A DNA stretch of 64,000 bases from Hyphomicrobiales bacterium (GTDB lineage Bacteria; Pseudomonadota; Alphaproteobacteria; Rhizobiales; RI-29): NCBI GenBank assembly GCA_016125495.1, contig WGLQ01000029.1, positions 1 through 64,000 on the forward strand, given 5' to 3'. The notes below the pieces were generated by a model that was not told where the DNA came from, did not search any database, and saw only the letters and a program-made list of their open reading frames with translations. Below are positions 54,910 through 57,710 of the stretch, piece after piece (the stretch's first letter is position 1; each line of letters starts with the position of its first letter). Position numbers and translations under genes: made by a program.

Positions 54910-55575
54910 TCAGTACCGGAAGAATTGTTCGTGGAAGTTATTGCTCGCATTCGTGTCGTAGCCGGGGTCGATCTGGGCTGTGAACTTCAAGGTGGCGCCG
55001 GGGTTCGCCTGCTCCAGCGCCGTTGCGTCCGTCGTGACGCGTGTACGCCCCCTTGCGTTCAACCCAGGGATGGAAACCTGCCGGCGGAACTGACCCGGTG
55101 TGCGCACCTTGTCGGCATCGGAACCCGAAACCCAGATGTACCCCGGGCGGGATTGCTGAGGCCCGTTGTTGACCACGTCGATGTAGACGGTTCCACCGGA
55201 GAACCCGACGATGGAAACGGCGATGTCGAACCCGCCCACCGAAGCAGGCTGCTGGAATTGCTGTTGCGGCTCATTTGGCCGATACTTCAATAGACTAGCA
55301 GCAAAATTGGGGAAGTTGTGCCAGGCGCACTCGCCGTTCTGAACCTTCGTTATCACTTCGCGCGAGGACAGCGCGGGGAAGTTGCCGAGCCCACATCTCT
55401 GATACATCTCCGACCAGTGGTTCCAGTCGCACCGCCCGTCTTGGCTGTAAGACCCGATGCAATCGACAGCCGCGTCGAAGGCGGAGGGCCCCGCCGTTGC
55501 AGGCTGACTGCCCGAGCTTGCGATCGCGATGAGAATGGCGCCCGAGATGGCGAGGGATGCTAATGACTTGTGCAT
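54910..55575 (-). CDS. Exported protein of unknown function with CARDB-like C-terminal domain
   Basis: 221 aa with a Sec signal peptide (about 1-28, cleavage near ATAG). The first domain has four Cys (CIGSY, CDWNHW, CGLG, CAWH), suggesting two disulphides. The second half (VSIVGFSGGTVYIDVVNNG to NASNNFHEQFF) looks like a beta-sandwich of the CARDB/adhesion type. It probably acts in the periplasm or outside. No known relative recognised. Confidence 0.72.
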   Translation of the reverse strand: MHKSLASLAISGAILIAIASSGSQPATAGPSAFDAAVDCIGSYSQDGRCDWNHWSEMYQRCGLGNFPALSSREVITKVQNGECAWHNFPNFAASLLKYRPNEPQQQFQQPASVGGFDIAVSIVGFSGGTVYIDVVNNGPQQSRPGYIWVSGSDADKVRTPGQFRRQVSIPGLNARGRTRVTTDATALEQANPGATLKFTAQIDPGYDTNASNNFHEQFFRY

Positions 55576-55727: not shown

Positions 55728-56078
55728 TTATTTGATGATGATCTCGACGTTGTTTTCGACGGTGAAGACGATATCGCAGTATCCATAGCTGTTGACCGAG
55801 ACCCAGACGTGGCCCCGATAGGTCTGCTGGACGTGACGCCCGTTGGGTGGAATATTCGCGTAGGGAACGAGCCTCCCGTTGAAATCGACCCACGAGAGCT
55901 GGGCCGAACGGTCGGCGACCCTGTTGATCACGATCAGCTCGCGGGCGTCGTTGCTGGCCGCGGACCGCAGGCCAGCGGTGTTGCAATTTGCTTCCGCCAT
56001 GGTGGGAGAGCCGGCAATCGCCAGGATGCCAGCAAGACCGGCTATAGTCTTGAGAGACAATGTATACATGGTGCTCAT
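55728..56078 (-). CDS. Exported VHL beta-domain protein
   Basis: 116 aa from the ATG at 56078. A signal peptide (about 1-28) precedes residues 48-116, which align without gaps to the von Hippel-Lindau beta domain: NR, W63-x-D-F-x-G68, PY73-x-x-IPP, T86-YRGH90-x-W92. The human pocket residues Trp88, Tyr98, Ser111, His115 and Trp117 correspond to Trp63, Tyr73, Thr86, His90 and Trp92. A lone beta domain cannot recruit a eukaryotic ligase; a role in binding a hydroxyproline- or proline-rich ligand is inference. Cys32 and Cys101 may form a disulphide. Confidence 0.82.
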   Translation of the reverse strand: MSTMYTLSLKTIAGLAGILAIAGSPTMAEANCNTAGLRSAASNDARELIVINRVADRSAQLSWVDFNGRLVPYANIPPNGRHVQQTYRGHVWVSVNSYGYCDIVFTVENNVEIIIK

Positions 56079-56330: not shown

Positions 56331-57710
56331 CTAGCGCGAGAGGATGGCCCGGGCCACCCGCTCGCCCGACATCAAGGCGCCGTGTGCCGTGCCGAAGTAG
56401 TCCGGCTCGCACGCCTCGCCCGCGAACCAGAGCCGGCCATCCCATGCCTGCTGACCGAGATCTCGGCGGGTCGCCCCGCTCGTTCCAACGGCGTTGTAGC
56501 TATAGCTGCCGGCGCTGAAGGGATCGGCCCGCCAGCGTGTGACCTGAGCACCGAGTGGTGCCGGAAAGCGGCTTCCGAACATCGCTCGCAGTGCCTCGTG
56601 GGCACTGGCCATGGTGGCCCGGTCGTCGAGCGCTTCCAGCGTGTCCGCTTCGTGCCCGGCATTGAATCCGAGGAGCACGGGCGCCCGCATGCCACGGGCG
56701 AGGGACAGCCACTCGGCCCAAAGTCCCGGTGTCGGCCCAAGCCACTCGATCCAATCGACGTCGTCCGGCCAGGCGATCCTGTCGAACCGAAGCCAGCACT
56801 TGTTGAGGAGGCCGGTCCCGAGCCCCTCTATCGCCACCTGGCGCCGCCGGCCGAGCGGCTCGGTAAAGCGCGGTCGCCCCGCCTGCAGGACGCCGAGCGG
56901 CACCGTGCAGACGACGCGATCCGCTCCGATGCGCGTTCCGTCGGCAACGCGCACCCCATCGGGGCTGACCTCCACCACCTCCATAGAGGTCCGGATGTCG
57001 AGGCCCTTCGCCAGCAAGGCGGTGATCCGGTCGAACCCGTCCGGGAAGATCACGTCGCCGCCGCCGAACTCCTCGCCGTCGTCACCATGCAGGGCCGAGA
57101 GCCGATCGGCGGGCGCCGCGTATTCCTGCTCGAGCGTGCTGTTGACGAGGTGGAGGACGAGCCGACGCTGCGCCTCGGTGGTGCCTTGCCATTCGGCGGA
57201 CTTTTCGAGCGCGGCCATCACCGACATGTCGGCTTGCCCGCGTGCGACCGCCCGGAGCGCCGATCGCAGAATTCGTTCCGCCGGCCGCATGTCGGGATCG
57301 CTGCTCTCGCCGTCGGGACCGATCAGCACTGCCGCGTCATAGCTCGTGGCGACGCGCCGGGCCCCCGCCTCGCGGGCCAGCGCGGTCAGCGGATTGCCTT
57401 TCGTTCCGTGAATCCAGCTCGCCCCGAGGTCGACCGGTACATCGGGCCAGTTGCGGGAGGTGTGGATGCGCCCCCCGATGCGCTCGCGGGCCTCGAGCAC
57501 GATCACCTCGGCGCCCCCCGCCGCGAGCATGCGGGCCGCGCCCAGACCTGCGAGACCTGCACCCACCACCACGATTCGCTCGTCGGAGGCGCGCGCCCGC
57601 CCTGCCGCCAGCAGCGCCGCCGCAATGGCTGGGCCGAGCGCCAGGACACTGCGGCGCGAAATGCGACTGCTCCTCCGTCTCGGTGTATTCGGCGTCGAAT
57701 GGCGCGGCAC
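56331..57710 (-). CDS. FAD-dependent amine oxidase (polyamine-oxidase-like) with Tat-like signal
   Basis: 459 aa from a GTG with GAGGGGAG about 8 nt upstream. An RRRSSRISRRSVLALG leader followed by a hydrophobic stretch resembles a Tat signal, implying export of the folded flavoprotein. The FAD motif VVVGAGLAGLGAARML and GGRIHTSRNW follow, and the C-terminus has FAGEACEPDYFGTAHGALMSGERVA, as in polyamine and related amine oxidases. Exported oxidation of an amine or polyamine, giving H2O2 and an aldehyde, is the family expectation. Confidence 0.88.
   Translation of the reverse strand: MPRHSTPNTPRRRSSRISRRSVLALGPAIAAALLAAGRARASDERIVVVGAGLAGLGAARMLAAGGAEVIVLEARERIGGRIHTSRNWPDVPVDLGASWIHGTKGNPLTALAREAGARRVATSYDAAVLIGPDGESSDPDMRPAERILRSALRAVARGQADMSVMAALEKSAEWQGTTEAQRRLVLHLVNSTLEQEYAAPADRLSALHGDDGEEFGGGDVIFPDGFDRITALLAKGLDIRTSMEVVEVSPDGVRVADGTRIGADRVVCTVPLGVLQAGRPRFTEPLGRRRQVAIEGLGTGLLNKCWLRFDRIAWPDDVDWIEWLGPTPGLWAEWLSLARGMRAPVLLGFNAGHEADTLEALDDRATMASAHEALRAMFGSRFPAPLGAQVTRWRADPFSAGSYSYNAVGTSGATRRDLGQQAWDGRLWFAGEACEPDYFGTAHGALMSGERVARAILSR

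Follow-up and report, generated by a model that had tools for sequence, protein, structure and literature searches.

Among the known systems closest to the protein reported here is the human tumour suppressor VHL, the receptor whose beta domain binds a hydroxylated peptide. Within it, hydroxyproline (Hyp) sits among Trp88, Tyr98, His110, Ser111, His115, and Trp117, where Ser111 and His115 form hydrogen bonds with the Hyp hydroxyl, Tyr98 with the carbonyl, and His110 through its backbone (PMC9528729). According to the same review, Phe91, Tyr112, Asn67, and Arg69 line one side of Hyp, and Phe76, Ile109, Pro99, Leu101, and Arg107 are among the residues lining the other side (PMC9528729). This ring site has been described as nearly invariant across metazoan VHL (PMC6650433).

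An exported bacterial form of the domain is already in print. EMK97_00595 of Litorilituus sediminis was published in 2022 as a secreted VHL beta-domain protein, and the passages devoted to it assign it, by inference, a role in tumour suppression while leaving the pocket unmentioned (PMC9002001). Table 2 of that paper further gives a 'VHL domain-containing protein' in Calothrix, Aliikangiella, and Limnohabitans (PMC9002001). Among the matches listed in a search of open-licence literature, none gave a measured ligand for a bacterial VHL-domain protein or dealt with the cleft of such a protein. Here, we describe P0001, a bacterial VHL beta-domain protein which, compared with EMK97_00595, comes from outside the Colwelliaceae and is shorter, the VHL domain of the Litorilituus protein lying at approximately residues 131-212 (PMC9002001).

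Identification of a VHL beta domain

The gene for P0001 occupies positions 55728..56078 on the minus strand of the window (the whole stretch of 64,000 nucleotides that was analysed) and encodes 116 amino acids, the coordinates including the stop codon. A preliminary description had recognised a VHL beta domain at this position, leaving the strand unstated, and had proposed a profile search, which bore the assignment out: P0001 matched PF01847 (VHL beta domain) in Pfam with an E-value of 3.5e-7, its 30.6 bits exceeding the curated threshold of 21. Two further Pfam families with E-values of 0.05-0.07 were both under their own cut-offs, and no NCBIfam model reached its cut-off. With P0001 as query, phmmer matched 24 different PDB chain sequences at E-values up to 10, every one of them VHL (E 8.3e-6 for the best match to 2.4e-5).

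Residues 63-92 of P0001, WVDFNGRLVPYANIPPNGRHVQQTYRGHVW (55803..55892, minus strand), align without gaps to human VHL 88-117, so that W63, Y73, T86, H90, and W92 correspond to VHL Trp88, Tyr98, Ser111, His115, and Trp117, with Thr in place of Ser111. The preliminary description was correct on this point, although phmmer itself placed one gap pair within the block. Furthermore, we used a leave-out profile made from 21 other bacterial sequences, from which P0001 and its closest relative were excluded and in which the five columns were masked. Against this profile, P0001 reached 44.8 bits and the stretch from human VHL 34.7 bits, whereas the best of 1000 shuffled versions of mature P0001 scored 8.2 bits. 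The homology between P0001 and VHL thus holds without the five pocket residues. A chance resemblance is ruled out by the Pfam score, the all-VHL matches in the PDB, and the shuffle test, and P0001 is a true VHL beta domain, which adds a member to an established family.

P0001 is probably exported, as had been proposed. By eye, its first 30 residues (55989..56078, minus strand) resemble a signal peptide, in which a hydrophobic segment (TIAGLAGILAIAG) is followed by AEA and then N, an A-x-A cleavage motif, with cleavage probably after A28-E29-A30. The approximately 86 residues after the leader form a single domain. We infer that this domain is probably clamped by a disulfide between Cys32 (55983..55985, minus strand) and Cys101 (55776..55778, minus strand), both of which are invariant in the family where aligned (79/79 and 77/77, respectively).

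Predicted structure and counterparts of the VHL hydroxyproline site

AlphaFold2 was run on an alignment of P0001 and its two named relatives. The five resulting models had mean pLDDT values of 78.6, 71.9, 56.4, 53.2, and 37.4, and the first of them was kept. It contains seven strands, with block-mean pLDDT of 85-93 from residue 31 on and a low-confidence leader (pLDDT <50 at residues 1-20). When this model was searched with Foldseek, the 50 matches listed were all VHL entries. VIA-align superposed residues 36-116 of the model (the VHL beta sandwich; 55731..55973, minus strand) on VHL 62-152 with a Z score of 11.3, an rmsd of 1.4 Å over 80 residues, and 28% identity, and the third row of its output was 4awj, VHL bound to capped hydroxyproline, with a Z score of 11.2. 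Structure prediction and superposition, which the preliminary description had suggested as a check, therefore returned the VHL fold. The confident model supports the placement of the five pocket residues at sites equivalent to the hydroxyproline site of VHL.

Since the end of P0001 is equivalent to VHL 152, its beta domain is complete and the elongin-binding alpha domain is absent. In this respect it departs from the CRL2-VHL E3 receptor, whose alpha domain carries the elongin-binding BC box; we take this box to lie beyond VHL 152. P0001 and human VHL share the same complete beta sandwich and the hydroxyproline-site residues (apart from the Ser111 to Thr exchange), but P0001 differs in its probable export, its probable disulfide, the missing alpha domain, and the loss of much of the remaining contact with the HIF peptide. 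Of the further VHL contacts, Phe91 and Tyr112 are kept as F66 and Y87, Leu101 is changed to Ile76, and Asn67, Arg69, Phe76, Pro99, Arg107, Ile109, and His110 are not kept. The comparison indicates that the ring site is kept in P0001 and much of the remaining peptide track is lost.

Distribution of bacterial VHL domains

The preliminary description had implied that P0001 was singular, a view which the survey of genomes contradicts. PF01847 was found above cut-off in 65 of the 397 genomes sampled from the order of the source genome (33 of 141 genera; the source genome included) and in 7 of 398 genomes of a phylum sample, three of the seven repeating the order sample, and was absent from 14 named control genomes. 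VHL domains are thus recurrent in this order, in approximately one-sixth of the sampled genomes, and P0001 is no one-off; a secreted member had also been published (PMC9002001). The source genome has one copy of the domain and was the sole return of a VHL search in its family. The named relatives are from a Hyphomicrobiales MAG and an Oricola MAG, with 75% and 52%, respectively, over the stretch that was matched. In these two orthologues, which have 61 and 54% identity to P0001, each of the five cleft residues is unchanged.

In total, 82 distinct bacterial VHL-domain proteins of 111 to 1747 amino acids were collected, and, by a crude script, 78 of them begin with a signal-peptide-like segment. 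An origin from a mobile element was also considered and rejected: neither plasmids (E 1e-3) nor phages (E 1e-2) yielded a tblastn match to P0001, and scanning viral contigs with a pattern turned up no relative either.

Conservation of the cleft

Because a search with the Pfam profile favours sequences that agree with its strongest columns, the profile was rebuilt with the five positions as X. Searched against the same 397 genomes, the masked profile had a match in 66; 60 genomes were common to both searches, 6 were found by the masked profile only, and 5 by Pfam only. Circular selection of the matches by the Pfam profile was rejected on this basis. The 82 proteins, which were drawn from both searches and include five from outside the order, were aligned to the masked profile and yielded 87 domains.

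Of the 87 domains, 83 retain Trp63, 82 have Thr or Ser at position 86 (71 Thr and 11 Ser), and 76 have His90, but only 58 have Tyr73. Trp92 is present in 72 of 80 aligned domains; in the other 7 rows the alignment ends before this position, yet the sequences have Trp there. The full pattern W-[YF]-[TS]-H-W occurs in 52/87 domains and the relaxed pattern W-x-[TS]-H-W in 66/87. When the columns of the masked-column alignment were ranked by information content, a measure which favours rare residues (Trp, Cys, and His), Cys101 and Cys32 took ranks 1-2, followed by W63 (rank 3), W92 (4), and H90 (5), with T86 at rank 11 and Y73 at rank 13. Judged from these alignments, the VHL-like cleft of the bacterial family looks to be under selection.

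The pattern is not universal. Of the six genomes recovered with the masked profile alone, four have domains that lost it (IRSQW, NQTNW twice, and RHTSW) and two keep it, and it is lost as well in the tandem VHL domains on contig 7 of another genome (G171). A 1747-amino-acid protein (L135:1663-6903, minus strand) carries four or more VHL-like domains in tandem, with degenerate residues in the cleft. Three long proteins (L130, L133, and L134), apparently BlaR1-type M56 peptidases with DUF3471, have a VHL-like domain that lacks Trp63 and His90.

Fusion partners in relatives

Pfam partners (E up to 0.01) were recorded for 80 family proteins. They comprised MliC (5 proteins), SH3_3 (5), M56 peptidase (3), DUF3471 (3), and LprI (2), and, in one protein each, a RicinB lectin (L139), a CVNH lectin, and another three weak families. 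MliC, LprI, SH3_3, and lectin partners are missing from most of the 80 proteins, and none of them was found in P0001 with Pfam at E up to 1. Twenty proteins were, in addition, scanned singly against the Pfam cut-offs. The lysozyme inhibitor MliC (PF09864) was above its cut-off in L129 (44.6 bits), below it in L083 and L019 (16.9 and 19.2 vs 22), and unlisted in L086, L088, L013, and L014, four long proteins resembling L083 and L019. LprI (PF07007), likewise a lysozyme inhibitor, was above its cut-off in L039 (26.4 bits) and below it in L084 (20.4). MliC fusions occur in proteins of families f41 and f40, and LprI fusions in f2 and f19. The presence of two unrelated lysozyme-inhibitor families beside VHL in different lineages suggests, without proving, that these proteins work at the cell envelope.

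A separate recurrent element was seen upstream of VHL domains, namely a stretch of approximately 130 amino acids with two cysteines that starts near [VI]PETD (L082, L081, L087, L095, L129, L137, and others). Its short motif is present in 16 of 82 proteins, in one of them (G343) probably by chance, and Pfam scans of L081, L082, and L129 named no family in the stretch.

Hydroxyproline-related genes

If the domain read hydroxyproline made in the same cell, prolyl-hydroxylase-type genes would be expected alongside it. PF13640 (P4H-type oxygenase) was present in 28 of 65 genomes with a VHL domain and in 123 of 332 without one (Fisher P 0.40), and PF05544 (hydroxyproline epimerase/Pro_racemase) in 35 of 65 and 180 of 332, respectively (P 1.0); neither is an association, and as both families are broad and the tests had no kinship correction, the evidence is weak. 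These results are still compatible with a ligand from another organism. The source genome contains one PF13640 match, four PF05544 matches, and no match to collagen repeats. One of the four Pro_racemase-family matches (L151; the others are L152, L153, and L154) adjoins, by eye, an ORF resembling an FAD-dependent amino-acid oxidase, an arrangement which we take to be that of hydroxyproline catabolism. The four matches and the oxidase-like neighbour suggest that the source bacterium may feed on hydroxyproline.

Proposed function and alternatives

We favour, with some reservation, the view that P0001 is an exported binding module without catalytic activity, which works at the cell envelope through its VHL-like cleft. 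It would be a small exported protein, hardly more than one VHL beta sandwich, and because it has no recognised catalytic or elongin-binding part, a binding module is the most likely role. Such a module would act in the periplasm or outside the cell through the cleft of aromatic, hydroxyl, and histidine side chains known from VHL, and a hydroxyl-carrying ring on a peptide or glycan would be a fitting ligand. The fusions to lysozyme-inhibitor, SH3, and lectin domains in some relatives would point to the envelope.

The preliminary description had gone further and named hydroxyproline or proline, possibly from a host, as the ligand. That P0001 reads these residues in extracellular proteins, for example in plant or algal hydroxyproline-rich glycoproteins or collagen, appears unlikely to us. 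The hydroxyl-bonding residues Ser111 and His115 do have counterparts in Thr86 and His90, which the family retains well (T/S in 82/87 and His in 76/87 domains), the neighbouring Phe91 and Tyr112 are kept as F66 and Y87, and the genome has its four Pro_racemase matches, one beside the oxidase-like ORF. Nevertheless, VHL genes are unlinked to PF13640 or PF05544 across the order sample, the source genome gave no collagen-repeat match, the contacts beyond the ring site are lost, and the bacterium is without any known host. What stands of the preliminary interpretation is accordingly a true VHL beta domain, probably exported, with its pocket residues, whereas the hydroxyproline or host ligand is unsupported. 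Aromatic clefts with polar side chains are common in sugar-binding proteins, and the cleft of P0001 might, by analogy, bind a sugar, with the family protecting the cell wall or blocking lysozyme-like enzymes. The fusions to MliC, LprI, SH3_3, RicinB (L139), and, in one protein, CVNH speak for this possibility, which we nonetheless consider doubtful given that only one MliC and one LprI match exceeded the Pfam cut-offs among the singly scanned proteins, that such partners are missing from the majority of the 80 proteins, and that P0001 stands alone.

The conserved residues might instead merely hold the fold, leaving a cleft without a ligand. VHL Trp117 belongs to an aromatic packing cluster (F76/W117/F119/F136) said to stabilise VHL (PMC3688787). 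Some of the conservation may therefore serve folding, and the F76 position is indeed Phe in 71 of 87 family domains. P0001, however, has V50 at F76 and S94 at F119 (F136 lies outside the comparison), the polar T86 and H90 are kept, and relatives without the pattern remain recognisable; the source on the packing cluster also reports that the modelled fold of VHL Y98H is almost unaltered, albeit with lowered stability (PMC3688787). We consider a purely structural role improbable. Membership in a ubiquitin-like degradation system, as homology to the substrate-binding domain of an E3 ligase receptor might evoke, is contradicted by the anatomy of a probably exported protein that has no elongin-binding alpha domain, and we give it practically no credence. 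Returning to the binding module that we favour, a bolder version would have the exported bacterial VHL domains read a hydroxylated ring, either host 4-hydroxyproline or a sugar mimicking it, at an old bacterial recognition site which the ubiquitin system, with the pocket of the animal oxygen-sensing receptor, took over later; we regard this as a long shot. If the cleft does bind hydroxyproline or a related group, this would suggest a job for the VHL pocket outside HIF signalling, and P0001 could be a stand-alone reader for hydroxyproline. The ligand question is directly testable because high-affinity ligands of the VHL pocket exist. Even otherwise, the lysozyme-inhibitor fusions in some relatives offer a first working idea for the role of this exported family.

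Genes adjacent to the VHL gene

By eye, the neighbouring genes or operon of P0001 are not common to the two named orthologues. The next gene on the same strand (54910-55575, minus strand) starts 152 bases downstream of the VHL gene and was not seen beside either orthologue. Its 221-amino-acid product is matched by neither Pfam nor NCBIfam models at E up to 1 and has, by eye, a signal-peptide-like start. The upstream neighbour (56331-57710, minus strand) encodes a flavin-containing amine oxidase (PF01593, 226.5 bits), the start of which appears, by eye, twin-arginine-like.
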